From IMG/VR virus record IMGVR_UViG_3300009788_000006, positions 18,022 to 82,021 of that record: a stretch of 64,000 nucleotides of DNA; one strand, written 5' to 3'. This document shows positions 2,314 through 57,760 of this stretch, piece by piece. The position numbers were made by a program, and so were the translations under genes. Numbering within the stretch: the stretch's first letter is position 1; each line of letters opens with the position of its first letter. Under the pieces are notes generated by a model. It saw only the letters and a list, made by a program, of their open reading frames with translations. It did no database searches and was not told where the DNA came from. Source of the DNA: a virus.

Positions 2314-2525
2314 GGCTCAACCCTGTCTGCCGGGACACCGTCGATTGTCAAGACACCGCTTTGCGAGTCAAAGGCCAGGTGATGAGATGCGCCGTCGTCG
2401 GCGCGCATGAAGAACGCAACGCCGTTGCAGACAATCTCAAGGCCGCGGTCCGTCCACTTAGCATCCATGCTGTAATCGTCTCCGGAGATTGTGACATCGA
2501 CGATGTTGGGATTGAGGTGGGCCAC
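2310..2525 (-). CDS. Hypothetical protein, 71 residues
   Basis: The GTG start lies 13 bases after the upstream stop and behind GGGGGAA. The longer frame would overlap the previous gene by 130 bases and is rejected. The sequence has alternating strands (VDVTISGDDY...LEIVCNGVAFF) and looks like a small beta protein. No family recognised. Confidence 0.6.
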   Translation of the reverse strand: MAHLNPNIVDVTISGDDYSMDAKWTDRGLEIVCNGVAFFMRADDGASHHLAFDSQSGVLTIDGVPADRVEP

Positions 2526-2538
2526 TGGAGTTCCCCCG

Positions 2539-2820
2539 TCAGGCTCCGACTTTCTCAAGGCGCCGAGCTGCTGCCCCCAGCTCAAGGACGTCTGCCTCAG
2601 ACGGCTCTTGACTCGGCGCGGCGTCATAGATCTCGCGCGCTCGCGCAAGGATCTCCGGAAGCTCATCGCAGACCTTGGGCATGTCTATTTCGAGCGTCCG
2701 GCCGCGCTGATCCGCCTTCGCGGACCCACCCATCACCATGCTCCTGGCCTCTTTTATGCAGTCAATCCACAGGTCATTGCTGACTTGTTCTATCTTCGAC
2801 ACTAGTCCCACTTCGTCCAT
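2539..2820 (-). CDS. Hypothetical helical protein, 93 residues
   Basis: Starts behind a strong AAGGAGG ribosome site. Charged and mostly helical, with heptad-like Leu/Ile spacing at its C-terminus (ADVLELGAAARRLEKVG). The first 47 bases overlap the end of the preceding Cys-containing gene in another frame. Function unknown. Confidence 0.65.
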   Translation of the reverse strand: MDEVGLVSKIEQVSNDLWIDCIKEARSMVMGGSAKADQRGRTLEIDMPKVCDELPEILARAREIYDAAPSQEPSEADVLELGAAARRLEKVGA

Positions 2821-3034
2821 CTGACTTCCTCCTTATCTCTGACAACGGCGGGCCGGCGGCACGACGCTTATTTTGAGAGCAGATCCAGCACGAACACCAG
2901 CGACGGACCCCGGCCATAATTCCGACCGTTCTGGGGTTCGCCTCGATCTCCCAGAGCTGACACAGTCTCCGGGCTCGTTGCTTCGCCCTGTGCCCCTGTT
3001 GCCTCTTGTAGGCTAAGCCTCTGCTGGAACTCAC
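2774..3034 (-). CDS. Small basic phage protein with C-x-C-W-x-C motif
   Basis: 86 residues from a GTG whose TG is part of the preceding stop (GTGA). An Arg/Lys-rich first half is followed by 'CSCWICSQNKRRAAG...SEIRRK'. This matches a widespread short phage family with the pattern CSCWMCGNPR...; its function is unknown, and zinc binding by the three Cys is plausible. The last 16 codons overlap the next gene. Confidence 0.6.
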   Translation of the reverse strand: MSSSRGLAYKRQQGHRAKQRARRLCQLWEIEANPRTVGIMAGVRRWCSCWICSQNKRRAAGPPLSEIRRKSDGRSGTSVEDRTSQQ

Positions 3035-3255
3035 GGCGCCACCGCCTCTCCCATCATCCGGCGAGCGGCACGCTCTGCGGTCGACTTCCGTCGGTACGCG
3101 CCAAGCCACCAGCCAGGGGAGCCAGGATCGAAGACCGGGTAAAGATCGTCCCCCGACTCGTCGGACTGGTCTCCGGCTACGATGACCGGGGCAGCAAGGA
3201 CGCGGCGGCGCCATTCAGCATAGCCGGGGCTGCTGAGTTCAGTCCTCGCGCTCAT
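3031..3255 (-). CDS. Hypothetical protein, 74 residues
   Basis: Starts behind GGAG; the stop overlaps the GTG of the next gene. It contains a 'PVFDPGSPGWWLGAYRRKSTAERAARRMMGEA' type C-terminal half, a short strand followed by a basic helix. No function recognised. Confidence 0.6.
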   Translation of the reverse strand: MSARTELSSPGYAEWRRRVLAAPVIVAGDQSDESGDDLYPVFDPGSPGWWLGAYRRKSTAERAARRMMGEAVAP

Positions 3256-5342: not shown

Positions 5343-5663
5343 TCATTTCCCCCTCCTTCGCATCGCCAGCCTTCGCTCTCGTCCGAAGCTCCGCAGCCTC
5401 ATGTGCTCCAGATAGGCGTCATCCACCGCCCCTATCGGCCACGTCAGGGCAGCCCAGAATAGCAGAGCGCGAAGCTTGATTTGGAGCTTGGCCCGCTGCC
5501 ACCATGACAGCTTCGGGACGTAGAGCTCTAGGGAGAAGGTTGCGGGCGACGTGACCCCGGCAGAATCTACAACCAGGCGAACCCACTGCGGCGGAGGAGC
5601 GTTGGTTGGTGAACCCGGCGCGGCCGGCGTAACTATCGTTCGGGTCACGGTTCGGGAGGTCAC
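5343..5663 (-). CDS. Hypothetical protein, 106 residues
   Basis: The first 60 residues are Thr/Pro-rich and strand-like (RLVVDSAGVTSPATFSLELYVPK). Then comes a hydrophobic, Trp-containing helix (LSWWQRAKLQIKLRALLFWAALTWP) that may lie on or cross the membrane, and a basic C-terminus. ATGA overlap with the Cys-rich gene upstream. Function unknown. Confidence 0.6.
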   Translation of the reverse strand: MTSRTVTRTIVTPAAPGSPTNAPPPQWVRLVVDSAGVTSPATFSLELYVPKLSWWQRAKLQIKLRALLFWAALTWPIGAVDDAYLEHMRLRSFGRERRLAMRRRGK

Positions 5664-5860
5664 TGCCGCGCCCCCTTGCGGATCTTAGCGGGTTGCCAGA
5701 ATACGCAATCGCGGACACCTGGGATCGAGGTCCCTCTCGCCTCTACAGCCTCATCGCTGACACACCACCAGCTCACCGCCGCCTGTAGATGGCAACAGTC
5801 CGCGCAACAGCGGCGACCAGCGTCGGGGTTCTCTCCGCAAGAGAGTACGTTCTCAATCAT
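5660..5860 (-). CDS. Cys-rich small protein, 66 residues
   Basis: Eight Cys residues, including 'CGENPDAGRRCCADCCHLQ' and 'WWCVSD', with a His between them, suggest a compact zinc-binding fold. The start overlaps the stop of the 16-codon frame upstream (ATGA), and its own stop overlaps the next start. No known family recognised. Confidence 0.6.
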   Translation of the reverse strand: MIENVLSCGENPDAGRRCCADCCHLQAAVSWWCVSDEAVEARGTSIPGVRDCVFWQPAKIRKGARQ

Positions 5861-5907
5861 GGCGGCGCGTCCGTCAGGGGCTGCATTATGTCTCGAAGGT
5901 CGGTCAC
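5857..5907 (-). CDS. 16-codon mini-gene (possible leader or coupling peptide)
   Basis: GTG start behind GGGGG with 7-base spacing; reads MTDLRDIMQPLTDAPP and stops at the TGA that overlaps the next ATG. It overlaps the preceding stop by GTGA. It could be a real micropeptide or simply a translational coupler; only its position and ribosome site support it. Confidence 0.35.
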   Translation of the reverse strand: MTDLRDIMQPLTDAPP

Positions 5908-6156
5908 TGCCACTCCCCCGTGTCACCGTTCGCCTCATCTGCACCAAGGCCGTTCGCGGCAGCCGCCTTCATCATTTCCATGATGTCTCCAGAGGCAATC
6001 GCTCTCTCGGTTTGCCTGATCAACCCCTTGGTGATCGCCTTTGTCTACGTCTAGGCCAGCACCAGACCCCGGCAAAATCTTTGCCGTCTCTTCTATCTCG
6101 CGGATGAACTGACGCGATTCCTCGTTGGCTTTCAGAAGCCCTTCGACAAGATTCAT
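5904..6156 (-). pseudogene. Small helical protein gene split by an apparent +1 shift
   Basis: The ATG at 6156 (behind AGGAG, overlapping the lipoprotein stop) encodes MNLVEGLLKANEESRQ... and a helical start. Near 6055-6057 (an AAA run) the sensible reading passes to the +1 frame: KAITKGLIRQTERAIASG...MMKAAAANGLG, ending GDTGEWQ with TGA at 5906-5904. The unshifted frame turns into unlikely His/Arg/Cys-rich sequence ending at 5935. The span is 84 codons plus one base. A homopolymer error, a true mutation or a real frameshift are all possible. Confidence 0.55.
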
Positions 6157-7994
6157 TCCCATTCTCCTGTGTCGCCAGTCTCAAACCCGCTTTCGAATAT
6201 CAAGCCCTCATCCGGCGGCGCCACATGCTCCGGCATCCGGTGCCCGTCGAGCACCCCGAACGCCGCGCGGTAGAAGATATCCCCGACGAAGCTCCCGCGG
6301 TGAGGGAGGACGTTGCGTGTGCCGAGATCGTTTGCCGGGTACATGTAGCCCCAGTAGTCGACCTGCTGGCCGCTGCACGGGTCCGTGAACGTTTCGCCCC
6401 TCGGTAGCATGGTGATCGTCGGGGCTTGCGAGACGTCGAAGAAGCGCTCGCGGTAACCTCCTGCCAGCCGGCCGGCGCCGGCGAAGGTGGTGGCGGGCGC
6501 GTAGTACACCCATCCCTCACCGTAGGACAGATAGTCTTTGGTCGCGAACGGGGTTCCGGAAACGTCGAAGCTGCCGATCTGCAATCCTCCGGCGCTGAAG
6601 TCGTAGACTTTGACGGTCCGCGTCGGACCCTGGGCGATCACCATCGCGCCCCACAGGCTGACGCCGTCCGACCACAGCGTGACCCCGCGGGCGGGCTCGG
6701 TGGTGCTCCAGATCAGCTCACTGCTGGTCGGGTCTTCGAGGTTGACGCGCCAGAGCTCGGCGGAAAAGCTGGTGCCGGCGAGCAAGTAGATGGCGCCACC
6801 GTGGACCGCGGCGCGGCTGTAGATAGTCGCCTCCAGCGAAGCGAGCTCCCAAAGGACCGCGGCGATGCGGTGACGGGTTCCGGCCGCCTCGGCGACCTTC
6901 CCCTGAGCTTCCTGCGTGGCAACGAGCCATCTCAATATCTCGACGGGTTCCTCAAGTTCTGCGGCTCGGAAAACAGCGAACGGGTCGGACGTTCCGCCAT
7001 CTTCCGAGTCTACATCCGGCGACCCACTTCTGCGTCCGTCGTCTCGAACTCGTAGGGGCTCACTGCGCATCACCTCCTGTTGTGCGGTCAACGAACTCAC
7101 TACTGCGAAGGATTCCCCGTCCCCGATCTCGCCCAGCCGCACCCCGCAAGAGCCTGTATAACTTCCGGGGTGTCGCTCCGGAAGCAGCTGGGCATTTTCA
7201 GCTAATTCTGTCAAGTTATCGTCCAGGCACGGCGCCGGCAGCGCCAATGCTGCGTCCGCGTCGTAGACGTGGCAGCCCAGCACGCCACAGGCGACGGCGT
7301 ACCGGCCGCCGAGCTCGACCAGGTCCACGGCTGTCGACCGGCTGGCGACGTCCTGGTAGAGGATGCGCAGCCGCTCATCGGCCGCTGGTGCTTCGAGGCG
7401 CCAGAGGGACGCGCCGACGGTGGAACGGCCGGAGGCGGCGATCACGGCTTCGCCAGAGGGCAGATACACGGCTTCGGCTTCGTCTAGGTAGAATGCGTTT
7501 TCGCCATACTCGGGAAAAGCAAGCCAGCATCCGTCTTGCCCCGACTCCTGGCAGATGTTATCCCACCCGGTGGCGTTCCGAAGTGGCACCGGCCGCCCCT
7601 CGATTAGATCGGTTCGCCACACCCCGATCGTGGCGTTTCTCGTGACGATGCATCTCGCGGACGACGGACAAGTAACAGCCTCGAATAGATCTTCGCGAGT
7701 CGTCGAGACCCACTGCGAACGATCTCTCGCCGCCGGCAAAGGCGGGCACTGCGCCCCGGAGCAAAAATCCATAGGTTGAAACTGAGTCCACAAATCCGCC
7801 CCGAGGTGGTGATTCGGCGCCGGCCGCGCCGGGCTGTTGTCGCCACACACTACGCTACTGCTCAGCGGTGCAGTCGCCGCAGCCCTTCGCAAGTCGCAGG
7901 GGCCTTCGTCGAATCCGAGACAGCACCCGGTCAGCACGAGCGCGGTGGCAATGGTCGCTATTCGTCCGACACCTTGCGCTCCGGCATGCGTCAC
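6153..7994 (-). CDS. Large phage-encoded lipoprotein, 613 residues
   Basis: The GTG start (behind GAGG, overlapping the upstream stop) opens a signal peptide with lipobox LTGC (Cys24), so the mature protein should be lipid-anchored outside the inner membrane. The body is beta-rich with repeated 'GGRYAVACGVLGC', 'GGAIYLLAGTSFSAELWR' and 'DGVSLWGAM' units, like a beta-propeller. The C-terminus FESGFETGDTGEWE resembles tails of secreted proteins in some Gram-negative bacteria. It may be a cargo (moron) surface protein or superinfection factor. No catalytic motif recognised. Confidence 0.7.
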   Translation of the reverse strand: MTHAGAQGVGRIATIATALVLTGCCLGFDEGPCDLRRAAATAPLSSSVVCGDNSPARPAPNHHLGADLWTQFQPMDFCSGAQCPPLPAARDRSQWVSTTREDLFEAVTCPSSARCIVTRNATIGVWRTDLIEGRPVPLRNATGWDNICQESGQDGCWLAFPEYGENAFYLDEAEAVYLPSGEAVIAASGRSTVGASLWRLEAPAADERLRILYQDVASRSTAVDLVELGGRYAVACGVLGCHVYDADAALALPAPCLDDNLTELAENAQLLPERHPGSYTGSCGVRLGEIGDGESFAVVSSLTAQQEVMRSEPLRVRDDGRRSGSPDVDSEDGGTSDPFAVFRAAELEEPVEILRWLVATQEAQGKVAEAAGTRHRIAAVLWELASLEATIYSRAAVHGGAIYLLAGTSFSAELWRVNLEDPTSSELIWSTTEPARGVTLWSDGVSLWGAMVIAQGPTRTVKVYDFSAGGLQIGSFDVSGTPFATKDYLSYGEGWVYYAPATTFAGAGRLAGGYRERFFDVSQAPTITMLPRGETFTDPCSGQQVDYWGYMYPANDLGTRNVLPHRGSFVGDIFYRAAFGVLDGHRMPEHVAPPDEGLIFESGFETGDTGEWE

Positions 7995-45931: not shown

Positions 45932-46264
45932 TCACACCGCCACCCCCAACAGAATCAGGCTCTTCTCAAATCCCCGGCGCCCGCCCTTGAGTTTCGACTC
46001 CACCACCAGATCAAGCGCTTCGCCTAGCCGTTCCTGGAGCTCGACCGCAATCACCAGATCTTCGACCGTAGATACGGCAACACCCATCCGAATTGCTACC
46101 GGCTTGAGTAGATCTTCATCATCCTCAAAAAGTCGGTAAGCCAACCGCGTCAGAGTGCCCGGCAATCCCCGCCTGCCAGTCCGCCGGGCATTGCCCACCA
46201 ATGCTCGAACCGCCTCGATTCTTTCAGCTGAGTCAACGCCGGCGCTTTCCAGGCGTGTGCTCAT
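45932..46264 (-). CDS. Small protein sharing the tail protein's C-terminus, 110 residues
   Basis: The last 26 residues (VVESKLKGGRRGFEKSLILL...) are nearly identical to the C-terminus of the 1122-residue tail protein at 46445. The first 80 residues differ (helical, HTH-like 'KPVAIRMGVAVSTVEDLVIAVEL'). A shared docking or assembly tail is likely. Confidence 0.65.
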   Translation of the reverse strand: MSTRLESAGVDSAERIEAVRALVGNARRTGRRGLPGTLTRLAYRLFEDDEDLLKPVAIRMGVAVSTVEDLVIAVELQERLGEALDLVVESKLKGGRRGFEKSLILLGVAV

Positions 46265-46444: not shown

Positions 46445-49400
46445 CTACACCGCTACTCCCAGCAAGATCAAGCTCTTCTCGAACCCGCCCCGGCCGCCCT
46501 TGAGCTTTGACTCCACCACCACCCCGCGCACCTCCCCGCCCTCGACACCCGGCGCAACGACCGCGATGATCGTTCCCGCGGGCGTTGCCGTCAGCCAGTC
46601 GGAAGTCACCAGCGTGTACTTCCGCGGCGCCCGGCCCAACTTGGTGGCCAGCGATGCCGCCGAGGTGGCTGCGGCGGACAAGCTCACGAACGCGGCATCG
46701 TAGCGGGCTTCGCGGCTCGAGAGCAGGTAGGTATTCGTGGCGCCGGCGATCTCGCGGCGCTGATAGCGAATCGGCTTCTGGACGAATCCGCGCCGCTCAT
46801 CATCAGCACCCAACAGCGGGTCGGGCTGCACCAGGCCGATGAGGTCGAAGCCGACGGACGCTGCCCAAGGTGGATCGGACCGTGCCCCCATCTGGATGGT
46901 TTGCAGAGCGCGGTCGTCGTTGATGGTCACCGTCGCCGTGGCCGTCGTCAGATCCTCAAAGGCCGTCCAGGTAGCCAGGCCCGCTTCGCCGTCCCAGACG
47001 ATCCAGCCCTCCGGCATGCGCAGCAGATCGATGACGTCCTGGACGGCCTGGTCACCGGCCATAGGGAGGCCGCGTGGCTCGTCCGGGAGGTCGACAGCAG
47101 CTGAGAGATCTTGCTGCGCGTCCGTCATGCCAGCCCGAAGGACCAGCGCATGGGCGGCAATGCATGGCATGTTTCCGACCGGGACCGGCTTGTTCCATTC
47201 ACCAGAGGTCACTACGAGGTCTTGCCCTCCAGTTGCTCCGGTATCAGGCCATACTGCCGGGTCAACATCTACACCAGCCTCTGACCAGCGATGCTCTGCC
47301 GCGCCTCCTGTTGGAGCAAAGTCGGGATCGACGAACAGCTCAAAGACTTCGGCGGCGGTCAGAACAGAATCATGAAGTTGGTTTTCGTTTGTGATCGTAT
47401 CCCGTAAGAATGTGGCAGGCGTTTGAATGCCGAAAGTCAAGTCCGTTGTCGGCGTCGACAGCTGCCCGGAAATAGCCGTGGTGTTTTTTAGAATTCCATT
47501 GATATAGATCTTAAGCTCTACGTTCGACGCGTCAATCTCGTCGGCCGTCACAGCCCAAAAATAGGGCTGTTCGAACGGGGTTGTAGCGACCGCGGTGTCG
47601 GTAGTTGACGTAGTTTCTAGACTAGCCGTTAATTGAGCCTCTCCTAAAATATTGAGCATGTTCAAAGACGCAAATTCGCTTGTAAACAATCTCCCGTCTG
47701 CTGTGGTCGCTGTTGTGAAAACCCATCCAGATAGGGTGTAACCCGATGTCAGAATAGAGCTGAAAGTAGCGTTAGAATCTGCCCAGGTCGCGGAGCCGTC
47801 GTAATGCATCCCGTGATCCCAGAAGCTCTCCCCCCAGGTATCACAGGTCACGGCTGCGGATGGCGCTGTGCCGAATCGGATATACTGCGCGTTCGTGGTA
47901 TACTTCCCGGCCCCCACAGCCGTCTGAAAGAAGTCCATCAGGTTGTCGATCTGGCCGCTGGTATCGAGCGCGACAACCGTGGCGCCGTCGAAGACGCCGG
48001 TCAGTGGGCCAGCGGTGTTCTCGGAGTTCGACCACATGAGGAAGTCGCTGAAGGCTTGTACGCCTGAAGCCACCGCCGAGCTGTGGACGTTCTTGGCCAG
48101 CCCGTAGGACACCGGGGGGCGCGTCCCCGCGAGCGTGACGCCGCCCTGGAGCCCGTGCGCTACGGCCGCTTCGGTGGTCGTGATCTCGGTTGCTTCGGCC
48201 ACGGACGTCGGGGTAGCGCCAGCGTCCAGCGGGTGAGCAAACCAGGTATCCCCGGTCGAGTCGATATCGTCGCTCCACTCGAAGGTCACGCCCGCGTCGT
48301 TCTCGGTCAGGCGTCGGCGGATCAGCGCGGTCCGGACGTCGTTGTCGGCGGGGAGCACCCCGGTACCGACGCCGATGGCGATCTGCGAAACGATGCCCTC
48401 GAAGAGCAGCGTATTACCCGGCGGATCAGCCCCTATCGTGAGCTGAGTCGCCGTCGCGGTGTAGGCGCCTGTTACCGAGCCCGTGGCCGAGCCCGCGGTC
48501 ATTGGGCGGGCACGATCCGACCAGTTCATCAGAAAGCCTTGAAGGGTGTTGGCCGTGGTGTCGAACTCGAAACGCGCCGAGTACCAGTTCTCGAGCCGGG
48601 GGACCGCCGGAGTCGACGCCTCGAACTTCACCGAATTGATATGGATGAACATCGTGAAGACCAGAGCTGAAGAATCGAAAGTGACGCCGTATGAGCCCCC
48701 GTCTGCCAAGGCAATCGCCCCGTTCGCGATGATGTAATGGTGTTTTGTCTGCCCGCGGTACTGCTCGGGAATGAACACTCTGCCGATCTGGATCACCATG
48801 TGATCCGATGCGCCGGGGTCGAGCCCCGCGGGCCGCGCTGAGTCCGTGTGGTAGTAGGCGCCGGCGTCGAACAAGATCGCGGCTCCGAATCCCGCGTACG
48901 GGAGCGCCAGCGGCTGCGTCCAGCCGATCACCGGCGGACGGACACCCAAGGTCAAGCGGTTGTTGGCCAGGTCGACGTGCTCGCTGTCTGTCAGCCCGTC
49001 CTTGAACAGGTAGCCAGGGGACGCCCACGTCACCCGGGAGCCGTCTTGCAGCGCACCGGTATAGCGGAGCTCGGCAGTCCGCCCGCTGGCGCTGTAGGCC
49101 ATGTAGGTCGCGGCAATCGACCGCGGCGTCTCGGGATGGGTCAGGATCTTGGCATCGTCCGACCAGCCGCCGGACGGAGCCGCGGGCCAGAACGGCAGCG
49201 CGGCGATCACGCCCGACCCGTTGGCGGTCGTGTCCTCGAGCACCACCCGCCACGCTTTTGGGCCGTCACCGGCGACGTGGAAGCGGTCGCCGCGGTGGAT
49301 GATGTGATTGGCTGGCAGCCCGTCACACGCCAGGGTGTAGACATCGGCCGAGACCGCGCCGTTGATCAACCCGCCGGCGCGGTGGAAGCCACCGAGGTCG

Positions 49401-50111: not shown

Positions 50112-50666
50112 ATGGCAGAACCGGAAGAGCTCACGCTTCGATACGTGCCCCTCGATGAGTGCCGCCGGTGGCCGAGCAATCCCAAAACTCACGACCTCGA
50201 CAAGCTCCAGGAATCGATGCGCCGCCACGGCTTCGTTGACCCGGCGAAGTTCGACACCGCCCTCGGCGCGCTGGTCTACGGGAATGGGCGGACCGAGGCC
50301 CTCGAGATCATGCGCGACGCCGGCGAAGAGCCGCCCCGCGGCGTCCATGTCGATGAGTCCGGCGTCTGGATGGTGCCGGTCCAGTACGGCGTCGACCAGG
50401 AGAGTCGGCAGATGGCCGAGGCGCTGGCGGTGGACCACAACTCACTGACCGCCGCTGGCTTGCCTGTCGAGCAAGTGGCGCTGATGTTCGACGCGGAGCT
50501 GCTAGCCGAGCTGATGGGCGGGGAGAATGCTCCAGAGCTGCTGCTGGATCTGGCGAGCGCGCTTGCTGACGTTGAGCCACCGGATGAGTTTCCTGATGTC
50601 GACGAGAATCTGCCGACCGAGCACCAGTGCCCGGAGTGCGGCTACAAATGGAGCGGCGGCGGATGA
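50112..50666 (+). CDS. ParB/Srx-like nuclease-domain protein, 184 residues (leaderless)
   Basis: 'LRYVPLDECRRWPSNPKTHDLDKLQESMRRHGFVDPAKFD...GALVYGNGRTEAL' is the ParB-N/ParB-like nuclease fold (hydrophobic-P-NPK.H....L..S...GF..P....G.....GR..AL). A C-terminal zinc ribbon (QCPECGYKWSGGG) follows. In phages it is often beside DNA methyltransferases, as here. Confidence 0.75.
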   Translation: MAEPEELTLRYVPLDECRRWPSNPKTHDLDKLQESMRRHGFVDPAKFDTALGALVYGNGRTEALEIMRDAGEEPPRGVHVDESGVWMVPVQYGVDQESRQMAEALAVDHNSLTAAGLPVEQVALMFDAELLAELMGGENAPELLLDLASALADVEPPDEFPDVDENLPTEHQCPECGYKWSGGG

Positions 50667-51907
50667 TCGAGGTTGAGGGCGCCAACGGGTTCAACCGCCA
50701 CCGCTTCGAGAATCGGGGGGGGGGGCAACCTATGGCGACGATTCAGGCGAAACGGCCGGTCAAGATCCGCGTGAGCGGTGAGCTGGACGCGGCGGGTACC
50801 TACTCCACCCCGACCATGGCCGAGGTCAACGCTGCCCGCGGGTCAAGCGGCCTTCGCGGCGTCTCTCTCTTCGCTGGCGGTGGCGGCTCGTCAACTGGCT
50901 GGGCGCTGGCGGGCTTCTCCGTGCTGTGGGCGAACGAATTTACCCGGCATGCCGCGGCGACCTACCGCGCCAACCACGCCGAGACGATCGTTGACGAGCG
51001 CTCTATCCGCGACGTGAAGCCGGAAGAGATCCTCGAAGTCCTCAGCCTCAAGCCTGGTGAGCTCGACTTCTTGGATGGGAGCCCGCCCTGCGACGCCTTC
51101 AGCACCGCCGGCAAGCGGGACAAGGGGTGGGGCAAGAAAAAGGCGTACTACACCGGCCAACACCGGCAGCGGACCGACGATCTGTTCTTTGAGTATATCC
51201 GCATCCTCGAAGGCTTGCGCCCGCGGGCATTCATCGCCGAGAACGTCTCTGGCCTGATCAAGGGTCGCGCGAAAGGTCGATTCATCCAGATCGTGAAGGC
51301 GCTCAAGGCCATCGGCTATCGCGTCGAGGTCAAGGTGTTGGACGCGCAATGGCTCGGCGTGCCGCAGTGCCGACAGCGAGTGATCTTCCAGGGGTCGCGG
51401 GATGGCAGGGAGCTGCGGTGGCCGAAGCCGCATACGAAGCGGATCTCGATGCGAGAAGCAATCGGAACGGAACGCGGATTAGTCGGCGTGGCGCCGAAGC
51501 GGTGGACAAGCGGCAAACGGTTCCATTCAAGCAATCCGGCGCCGGTAGTGATGAAAGACGGGATCGCCGGATCGGCCCGCCACCAGGTTCTTCTTGAAGC
51601 TGGTCACGAGCCTCTGCCACCGTCAAGACGCAAGGCATACGAAAGGCGGCGAGGCGTTCAACTTCACCAAGCTGTCGCCGGTGAGCCGGCGCCGACGATC
51701 ACAATCAGCAGCCCGGGGAACGATGTCGGGCACTGGGAAGGGCCGCGCAAGCTCACCATTCCAGAGCTCAAGGCCATCTGCTCATTCCCCGCAGACTACA
51801 AGCTTCTCGGGTCCTATGCCGAGCAGTGGGCCATCTGCGGGATGAGCGTGCCGCCGCTGATGATGTTCGAGATCGCGAAGTGTGTCAGGGAGGGGCTCGG
51901 CAGCTGA
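50663..51907 (+). CDS. C5 cytosine DNA methyltransferase
   Basis: 414 residues from the ATG overlapping the ParB-like stop. Motif I 'GVSLFAGGGGSSTGWALAGF', catalytic motif IV 'GSPPCDAFSTAG', motif VI 'AFIAENVSGLI', motif VIII 'QCRQRVIF', and the motif IX/X region 'LTIPELKAICSFPADYKLLGSYAEQWAICGMSVPPLM'. Residues around 326-341 look frame-scrambled (see findings). An 11-G run lies near codon 18, and ATG 50732 downstream is an alternative start. It should protect the phage genome from restriction. Confidence 0.85.
   Translation: MIEVEGANGFNRHRFENRGGGQPMATIQAKRPVKIRVSGELDAAGTYSTPTMAEVNAARGSSGLRGVSLFAGGGGSSTGWALAGFSVLWANEFTRHAAATYRANHAETIVDERSIRDVKPEEILEVLSLKPGELDFLDGSPPCDAFSTAGKRDKGWGKKKAYYTGQHRQRTDDLFFEYIRILEGLRPRAFIAENVSGLIKGRAKGRFIQIVKALKAIGYRVEVKVLDAQWLGVPQCRQRVIFQGSRDGRELRWPKPHTKRISMREAIGTERGLVGVAPKRWTSGKRFHSSNPAPVVMKDGIAGSARHQVLLEAGHEPLPPSRRKAYERRRGVQLHQAVAGEPAPTITISSPGNDVGHWEGPRKLTIPELKAICSFPADYKLLGSYAEQWAICGMSVPPLMMFEIAKCVREGLGS
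50715..50725. repeat. Homopolymer of 11 G inside the methyltransferase gene
   Basis: A run of 11 G between codons 17 and 21. Length change by one would put translation from the upstream ATG out of frame, leaving ATG 50732 downstream. Confidence 0.9.
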
Positions 51908-55539: not shown

Positions 55540-56129
55540 GCACTCAAGGCGACACCCACAGCCCCGCGGCGCGGTACCTGGAGAGGTACGCAGACGTTTT
55601 AGAGCGCCGTCTTCGGCAGGCGAACGTTAGGCGAACGACAGCATGGTCTACGGAAGAGGAAGAATGGGACCAAGGTGCTGCCGAGTGCCGGGCGCTCGCC
55701 GCCCAGCTGGGATCTCAGGAGCCGGCGACCGGGGTCGATCCAGAGACCGGAATCAAGCTGACGCACCAAAGCAGGCGCGAGCGGTGGTTCGAAGACGGGA
55801 CCTGCATCAACGGCGAGGCCATGCTACACGAAGAGTGGCACAAAAACCCTCTGGCCCAGGTGGAGCGGCCTGCCGACGGCTGGGTCTACACGGACCCCGA
55901 CAGCTCGCCGCCGGACGGCTGGTACAGGTTCCGCTGGGCGACGGGTGAAGAGGTCCGCGTCAAAGAGGCCAGGACCGTCGATGGCGTCGCTGTAGTCTAC
56001 GGTATCGCCCAGCGGTGCTCGTGGAGCAGCTTTGTCGAGAACGAGGGCCGCCAGATGTGGCCGGTCCCGGTTGAGATGTACGAAGACGAGCCGATGGCCG
56101 AAGGCGGAACCGAGCACGGAGGCCGATGA
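55536..56129 (+). CDS. Hypothetical protein, 197 residues
   Basis: An N-terminal helix (ARYLERYADVLERRLRQANVRRTT) and a Trp-rich, strand-containing C-terminus (GWYRFRWATGEEVRVKEARTVDG). ATGA overlaps at both ends; ends at the terminase start. Function unknown. Confidence 0.6.
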   Translation: MSTQGDTHSPAARYLERYADVLERRLRQANVRRTTAWSTEEEEWDQGAAECRALAAQLGSQEPATGVDPETGIKLTHQSRRERWFEDGTCINGEAMLHEEWHKNPLAQVERPADGWVYTDPDSSPPDGWYRFRWATGEEVRVKEARTVDGVAVVYGIAQRCSWSSFVENEGRQMWPVPVEMYEDEPMAEGGTEHGGR

Positions 56130-57760
56130 CTGAGCTCAGCTTCACTGACTCCGTCCTATCGGACTGGCGAGGAGCGCAAGCGGGGCCGCAGGCAATGTCG
56201 CCTGTCTCCCTGGCGGATCACCTACGGGAGGTTGATCCAGGTCCGCATCTAGATTGGTGGCACGTCGGCGCCATGGTCGAGGTGTGTCAGGCGGTGCTTG
56301 ATGGCGAGCTTGATCGCCTCATGATCCACGCTCCGCCGCGGTATTTCAAGTCGAGGGTAGTAGTTCAGGGGCTTGGATCGTGCTGGGTTCGCAACCACCC
56401 GGACCAGTTCGTGGCGCTGCTATTCGCGTCTGACAAGCTGGCGAAATTCCACTCGATGCACACCCGCGAAGCGGTCGAGCGTGCCGGGGTCAAGCTCCGA
56501 ACAGATTCGCACGACAAAGGGCTGTGGATGGTCGACGGCAGCCACGGCGGTCTGTGGCTGACGACGATTCGCGGGAAGCCATTGGGTTTCGGCTGGCGCC
56601 TTGGAATCGTCGATGATCCTCTAGGCAGTTACGAAGAGGCCCAAGGCGTCACCGGCCAGGAGATCGCGGAGCGCGCGTTCGACTCATTCGTGGAGCGGCA
56701 GGAAAAAGGCCAGCCGAAGCCCGTGCTGGTAGTCATGCACCAACGGTTGGCAGCTCTGGACCTGGCGGGCCGGCTCTACCAGAGGGAGATTGATAGCCGT
56801 CGGGCAGAGGGGTGGACGGTGCTCGAAATGGCAGCGGAGCGACGTCCGCGCAGGGTGGCGATGCCGGGCAGCTGCACAGTGGTTCAAGATCCGCGCGAAA
56901 ACGGTGAGGCGCTGTGTCCCGATCTCGAAGGGGTCGACGAGATCCAAGCTCGGCAGGAGCGCGACCCGGTCCGCGCCGCATCGGTAGACGGCCAGGAGCC
57001 GCTAGAGATGATGGGCGGCGGCATCTTCCGGCAATCGTGGTTCCGCCTGGTCGGCATTGGTCGAGATGATTTGGGCCGAGGTCCGCGCTTCAACGACCAG
57101 CTTGCTGTATTGAATACTCTTGTATCAGAGGGGGTTATCGCGCCCATCCGCATGCTGTTGCGAGGACATGATTTCTCGGCCGGCGGCAAGGATACGACCA
57201 CGTCGGTAGGGCTTGCGGTTCTTGAGCCGGGCCAAGGGCTCGAATATCTCTGGTTCGACATGACCGAGGATTCCCCCGCAGCCGCTGCGGTCGAAGGTAA
57301 AGCGTTGAGCAACGCATTGCGCGACGATACGGACGTAGAGCAGGTGATCCCGAACGAAGTCGGCACCGGCGGCACCTTGTCCGCGTCGCTTGCCGGCCAG
57401 ATGCGAAAGCTTCGCTACACCGTCCACGTTCAGCCGCAGCGCCGCGGCAAGCGCGTCCGGGCAATGCCGCATGCCGGCGCAGCTGCGCCCCTGTGCCGTG
57501 GCTGCGGAGCCTTGGTGGTGTCGCCAGCGGAACGCCGCTCGATGTCTGGATCAGATCTTTGTGGCTGTGGTTCGCCGGACGTGACTCTTGGGAAGGTCGG
57601 CGTCTTGTCCGGCCCGCTGGCCGACCGGTTCGTCTCGGAGCACCACGAATTTACTGGCGAGGAAGGCGGCCGAGACAATCTGGTGGACGCTGCCGCGTTG
57701 GCCTACCTCGTTGCTATCTCAGTGCCCGCGGTCAAGCCCCGTGACTGGAGCAGCTTTTGA
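56126..57760 (+). CDS. terL: Terminase large subunit
   Basis: 544 residues. ATPase: Walker A 'HAPPRYFKS' (68-76), Walker B with catalytic acid 'RLGIVDDPLGSYEEAQ' (167-177), coupling motif later. Nuclease: first Asp in 'GHDFSAGGKDTTTSVGLAVL', last Asp in 'DNLVDAAALAYL'. Between them is an unusual zinc finger (APLCRGCGALVV...LCGCGSPD). It cuts and pumps DNA into the prohead with the small subunit and portal. Its stop carries the -35 of the next promoter. Confidence 0.93.
   Translation: MTELSFTDSVLSDWRGAQAGPQAMSPVSLADHLREVDPGPHLDWWHVGAMVEVCQAVLDGELDRLMIHAPPRYFKSRVVVQGLGSCWVRNHPDQFVALLFASDKLAKFHSMHTREAVERAGVKLRTDSHDKGLWMVDGSHGGLWLTTIRGKPLGFGWRLGIVDDPLGSYEEAQGVTGQEIAERAFDSFVERQEKGQPKPVLVVMHQRLAALDLAGRLYQREIDSRRAEGWTVLEMAAERRPRRVAMPGSCTVVQDPRENGEALCPDLEGVDEIQARQERDPVRAASVDGQEPLEMMGGGIFRQSWFRLVGIGRDDLGRGPRFNDQLAVLNTLVSEGVIAPIRMLLRGHDFSAGGKDTTTSVGLAVLEPGQGLEYLWFDMTEDSPAAAAVEGKALSNALRDDTDVEQVIPNEVGTGGTLSASLAGQMRKLRYTVHVQPQRRGKRVRAMPHAGAAAPLCRGCGALVVSPAERRSMSGSDLCGCGSPDVTLGKVGVLSGPLADRFVSEHHEFTGEEGGRDNLVDAAALAYLVAISVPAVKPRDWSSF

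Follow-up and report, generated by a model that had tools for sequence, protein, structure and literature searches.

In a 64-kb window of viral DNA (bases 18022-82021 of a linear, 82,021-base IMG/VR viral contig), an uninterrupted run of eleven guanines lies inside the gene of a C5-type DNA modification enzyme, between two in-frame start codons. We tentatively favour, at somewhat less than even probability, a reading in which this run, in frame with the enzyme and prone to slip, is part of an accessory N-terminal extension, and in which slips would alter the isoform or the level of the enzyme but not switch it on or off. We infer the slippage itself, which is plausible, together with the coupling of the enzyme to its upstream neighbour, the use of each start and any phenotype. 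The features on which this reading builds are the following:

50112-50666, plus strand: ParB-like gene (PHROG 620 ParB-like, 3.8e-12)
50664-50666, plus strand: TGA, stop of the ParB-like gene, overlapping the enzyme's ATG50663
50663-51907, plus strand: C5-cytosine DNA modification enzyme of the CmoX/C5-MTase superfamily (long form, 414 aa)
50663-50665, plus strand: ATG, upstream enzyme start, in an ATGA overlap with the ParB-like stop (Shine-Dalgarno energy -6.0)
50666-50713, plus strand: N-terminal extension ahead of the tract, IEVEGANGFNRHRFEN, coding-like in the enzyme frame
50715-50725, plus strand: G11 tract, read in the enzyme frame as CGG GGG GGG GGG (R-G-G-G)
50732-50734, plus strand: ATG, second start, with G11 as a Shine-Dalgarno-like sequence 6 nt upstream
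50771-50773, plus strand: GTG, third in-frame start, about where extension-less relatives start, overlapping the TGA at 50772-50774 (GTGA)
50772-50774, plus strand: TGA at which, by frame reading, translation from ATG50663 would stop with a tract of 10 G
50779-50781, plus strand: TGA at which, by frame reading, translation from ATG50663 would stop with a tract of 12 G
51080-51091, plus strand: SPPC catalytic motif with the nucleophile Cys143, an invariant alignment column
51536-51700, plus strand: two TRD-like PAP(V/T)(V/I) units, PAPVVMKDGIAG and PAPTITISSPG, the first resembling the N-terminal module of relatives
51842-51844, plus strand: Met394 codon, at the position of HhaI Asn304 and CmoX Arg350

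The tract is exactly where an earlier note on this DNA had placed it, flanked by a C at 50714 and a C at 50726, and is the sole G or C run of at least 7 on either strand of the window, all others being of at most 6. About 0.001 runs of at least 11 are expected in the window, with a run-length tail that drops about 6-fold per added base, and the longest G/C run in 525 kb of other high-GC loci is of 9. A dinucleotide shuffle, a poor null here that over-predicts G runs, yields 18.6 G7 words, while 5 are observed, every one within G11; long G runs are therefore avoided elsewhere. With the N-terminal amino acids and phage codon usage taken as given, a G run of at least 11 has P = 0.016 and, because of this value and the run-length spectrum, chance is an unlikely origin of the tract under nulls that fit the data. 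As in contingency genes, the long homopolymer sits in the 5' part of a reading frame, downstream of ATG50663 as the earlier note held, albeit by 17 codons and not by "a few"; by analogy with known poly-G loci, it would be long enough for slippage.

The ATG50663 does share its ATGA with the ParB-like stop, as had been noticed before, and it is in frame with ATG50732 and the enzyme: the frame it opens passes through the tract as R-G-G-G-Q-P, then through ATG50732 and into the remainder of the enzyme. Over the 17 codons ahead of the tract, the codon log-likelihood is +9.4 bits in the enzyme frame as compared to -11.9 and -9.1 in the two others, exceeding the 95th percentile of real gene windows (8.4; mean 3.1), and the pre-tract stretch is probably translated since these coding statistics favour the enzyme frame. 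The duplex energy at ATG50732, -10.2 kcal/mol, is the strongest of the seven starts scored and among the strongest in the window (mean at random positions, -2.8), where all Shine-Dalgarno energies refer to an anti-Shine-Dalgarno sequence that may not be that of the host. The relatives L005-L007 start about 13 residues ahead of MAEI, at approximately the position of GTG50771.

A structure predicted from a 33-sequence alignment, with the L015 and L016 proteins left out, has a pLDDT of about 60 for the first 50 residues, and the catalytic core, which begins at about residue 51, mostly exceeds 90; within the extension, strands are predicted at residues 2-5 and 12-15 (pLDDT about 60-68), and the TRD region is poorly predicted. 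The alignment of CmoX with the window enzyme begins at residue 19 of the CmoX chain; little sequence ahead of the core is thus needed by an active relative. By this model, all three starts (ATG50663, ATG50732 and GTG50771) would retain the catalytic core.

At a tract length of 11, a ribosome finishing the ParB-like gene would restart at ATG50663 and produce the long form, the overlap of stop and start suggesting translational coupling of the two genes. At a length of 10 or 12, the ATG50663 reading would end within about 60 nt of the tract, and the enzyme would be made only from ATG50732, with the tract as its Shine-Dalgarno sequence, or from GTG50771, giving a short form, perhaps in another amount. 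The earlier expectation that a one-base change throws ATG50663 out of frame and leaves ATG50732 agrees with the stops at 50772-50774 and 50779-50781, with the addition that GTG50771 is left as well. Because both of these starts follow the tract in frame and the core begins later, the gene would not be switched off, and since the core is kept from any of the three starts, a slip would amount to a change from the long to the short form or to a change in amount.

The gene had been called a DNA methyltransferase gene, and its product indeed has the C5-methyltransferase fold and the catalytic PPC Cys, ENV and QxRxR motifs, with matches to Pfam PF00145 (1.4e-53) and NCBIfam TIGR00675 (9.9e-47) that yield a C5-cytosine methyltransferase call. 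The nearest solved relative by sequence is CmoX (8YF3, 4.1e-58), followed by M.HaeIII (4e-21), and 8YF3 is also the top Foldseek match (9.7e-27). CmoX moves a carboxymethyl group from Cx-SAM and contacts it through Arg350, and CmoX candidates have been defined by SPPC plus this arginine (PMC12783734). The window enzyme has SPPC and overall similarity to SpCmoX but Met394 in place of Arg350, and it reads GMSV where motif X has the Asn of HhaI (GNSV, N304); across 116 homologs, R occupies this position 92 times and N 21 times, with D, L and M occurring once each. "Methyltransferase" is therefore uncertain, a default name and not a result, since the nearest characterised enzyme is a carboxymethyltransferase and yet its arginine is replaced. 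No match to CmoA (TIGR00740) or to an Asn-synthetase-type ligase (PF00733) was found in the 82-kb record, which is possibly incomplete.

The sole D, L and M at this position belong to L004, L033 and the window enzyme, all of which are tract-bearing. A strict link between tracts and a motif X without Arg (4/23 versus 0/92, Fisher 0.0013) was nevertheless rejected, as L183, with a G8 found by motif scan, carries Arg and the link is thus not absolute.

The neighbourhood is that of a phage ParBc/C5-enzyme gene pair, with the ParB-like gene immediately upstream and a 4-nt ATGA overlap of stop and start, an overlap of the same length recurring in Streptomyces phage TurkishDelight, L005 and L018; a terminase large subunit gene lies in the same window at 56126-57760. 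ParBc neighbours are frequent beside CmoX and were without known role in the 2025 paper (PMC12783734). The ParB-like protein gave no match in a Pfam search, and its C-terminus carries a CPECGYKW Cys pair; the N-termini of the L008 and L010 enzymes have one or two CPxCxxxW zinc-ribbon-like motifs ahead of the core, like this C-terminus. Elsewhere in the window, two minus-strand ORFs, of which the second has 1122 aa, share a C-terminus, VESKLKGG(R)RGFEKSLILLGVAV, that is encoded by a 75-nt direct repeat (81%; 45934-46008 and 46447-46521).

For comparison, we read 167 loci collected by three protein scans and could place the start of the core in 108 of them. Among these 108, five of the nine G/C runs of at least 8 fall within the 200 nt ahead of the core, which make up 21 kb or 3% of the DNA; the other four are spread over the remaining 658 kb. 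The binomial probability is 3e-6, or 3e-5 when counted per locus (4/7), in a test made post hoc, once the pattern had been noticed; none of the 20 A/T runs of at least 8 in these loci falls in that region. The five runs are found in L004 (twice), L018, L033 and L041. Several relatives have at the N-terminus a module (PSPTIMAGGLGGGNTSQYWIEDDG and similar sequences) akin to the P-x-PT(I/V) units that these enzymes carry in their TRD region; its three Gly codons ease runs of G8-G9 (P of G8 or more 0.009-0.07 per gene), and such a Gly-rich motif accounts for part of the relatives' tracts. In L064, L177 and L180 the same module glycines are encoded by interrupted G runs, and the closest relatives of L018 interrupt the tract by synonymous codons, so that the tract is not conserved. 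Most homologs are without an N-terminal extension.

Where module and tract occur together, the module is in frame across the tract in L018 and L183 and, as far as the contig extends, in L041. In L004, "QPSPSIQAGG" and "GVGGGNTSQYF" lie in different frames on either side of a G8, and in L033 an upstream ORF that by eye is module-like stops at a C8, followed by AATGA, whose ATG begins the core. L066 has a split module and core without any tract, and L178 was dropped as an out-of-frame case, as it has several frameshifts and is pseudogene-like. A module HMM gave the window protein as a whole 15.1 bits, a score that does not come from the tract region. The idea that the GGGNTSQYW module has a frame-displaced copy at the window tract, readable there as "IGGGGNLW", was rejected, as this stretch scores with the module HMM like shuffles; the window extension is not recognisable as a module copy, and the parallel with the relatives is therefore one of position, not of sequence. 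Two further arrangements emerged among these loci: an intein-like insertion directly at the catalytic Cys of a C5-type enzyme in L010 (8001-9746; SPPC followed by FPAGALVLAKRGLIPIEEIVVGDEVLT...), and an enzyme ORF in L053 (2740-4383) with, at its N-terminus, the motif IX-X tail of a different C5-type enzyme (RKFTVAELKRICSFPDDF...), which suggests a tandem fusion or a permutation.

An exact-flank search of viral contigs for length variants recovered only IMGVR_UViG_3300024265_000238 (L003/L184), which overlaps the window by 13.7 kb with 2 substitutions and no indels and also has 11 G. No variation in tract length is thus seen between the two assemblies, a single comparison of consensus sequences that says little on minority lengths. 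A search for relatives through the terminase returned one identical contig and one 41% relative (L185). Upstream of its terminase, L185 has a different C5-methyltransferase-like ORF (about 2316-3056) and a second ORF resembling a DNA methyltransferase (about 5558-7087), and it contains a C9 run at 994-1002.

The reading of the tract as a slippage-prone part of the extension draws on the pre-tract coding signal, the Shine-Dalgarno energies of both ATGs, the conserved overlap, the clustering of G/C runs ahead of the core, and the frame breaks in L004 and L033; against it count the uniform length in the two assemblies, the lack of conservation of the tract, the many homologs without an extension, and the dissimilarity of the window extension to the relatives' module. 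Some of the same observations would fit a tract that is merely the Shine-Dalgarno sequence of ATG50732, the enzyme starting only there and the tract being untranslated and of neutral length above about 5 G. Its 6-nt spacing and strong duplex energy speak for this, as does the presence of the whole core in the short form; we nevertheless find it rather unlikely, as the codons ahead of the tract score above the 95th percentile of gene windows in the enzyme frame, the upstream ATG50663 has the family-typical ATGA overlap, and a Shine-Dalgarno sequence of 11 G would be unusual in a window whose other runs are of at most 6. Of similarly low probability is that a disordered N-terminus that the enzyme can do without acquired a long G run by drift in a stretch coding for Gly and Arg, as a neutral by-product, with occasional slips that have no consequence and are not selected. 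The low predicted confidence of the extension, its absence from most homologs, the poor conservation of the tract among relatives and the higher odds brought by Gly-rich coding all accord with such drift, but the tract stands alone as an extreme case in a genome where long G runs are avoided elsewhere, and the relatives cluster G/C runs at the same place whereas A/T runs do not.

The phase switch proposed in the earlier note holds up as far as an in-frame tract near the 5' end, a coding-like stretch ahead of it, and G/C tracts at the same place in relatives are concerned, two of them (L004 and L033) with frames that break at the tract. As a classical on/off switch of the enzyme it is very improbable, as the in-frame ATG50732 and GTG50771 sit between tract and core. 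That the homopolymer length is an artefact of assembly or sequencing is more improbable still: the sequence comes from a metagenome contig and homopolymers are error-prone, but the other assembly, 2 SNPs apart, has the same length, and at 11 the frame is intact, with coding-like sequence on both sides.

The slippage reading has parallels in several known systems. Phase variation through poly-G is reported to have been shown experimentally for a receptor-binding protein of Campylobacter phages (Sorensen et al. 2021 Cell Rep, cited in PMC11868660 and PMC10579305) and is the closest precedent for the mechanism, so that the earlier "less so in phages", said of phase-variable methyltransferases, needs updating. 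There too, a long G tract inside a phage gene can shift the frame, but what it switches is a receptor-binding protein, while the window gene modifies DNA, keeps its core through downstream starts and has no observed variation. Phasevarions likewise have a homopolymer in the 5' portion of a gene for DNA modification, but their phase-variable methyltransferases belong to Type I/III RM systems of the bacterial host, which switch on and off or change specificity (PMC12707154), whereas the window enzyme is an orphan phage C5-type enzyme in which the expected change would be one of isoform or level. No direct precedent for a phage-encoded, phase-variable DNA-modifying enzyme was found in the openly licensed literature.

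Among characterised enzymes, CmoX of Synechococcus phage S-B43 (a DNA cytosine C5-carboxymethyltransferase, 8YF3) resembles the window enzyme in SPPC, sequence and structure, and ParBc neighbours are described for many CmoX (PMC12783734); it differs in that the window has Met394 for Arg350, no CmoA or ligase found in the 82-kb record, and the G11 extension. In TurkishDelight (gp122-gp123, L016), there is likewise a 4-nt overlap between a ParB-like gene and that of a C5-type enzyme (42% identity), but this enzyme has Arg at motif X, is without a run of G6 or longer ahead of its core, and is followed by a glutamine-amidotransferase and then a second "methyltransferase" gene. The order of gp122-125, annotated generically as ParB-like, C5-type enzyme (with Arg), glutamine amidotransferase and "methyltransferase", looks like a CmoX-CmoY-CmoA pathway by analogy with the published one (PMC12783734).

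Should the length of the tract vary, several forms of the phage's DNA-modifying enzyme would coexist in one population. This would hedge against restriction by the host through replication slippage and not through recombination, with the enzyme retained. The tract is also a specific starting point for understanding the N-terminal modules in the large CmoX/ParBc family. It is conceivable, though doubtful, that in those phage enzymes of the CmoX superfamily that modify cytosine and are coupled to ParB, an N-terminal, often TRD-like, module is repeatedly attached or detached by way of slippery G/C tracts, located downstream of the coupled start and ahead of the core; if so, module switching would diversify the specificity or the amount of genome modification within a virion population, while the core would always be active.
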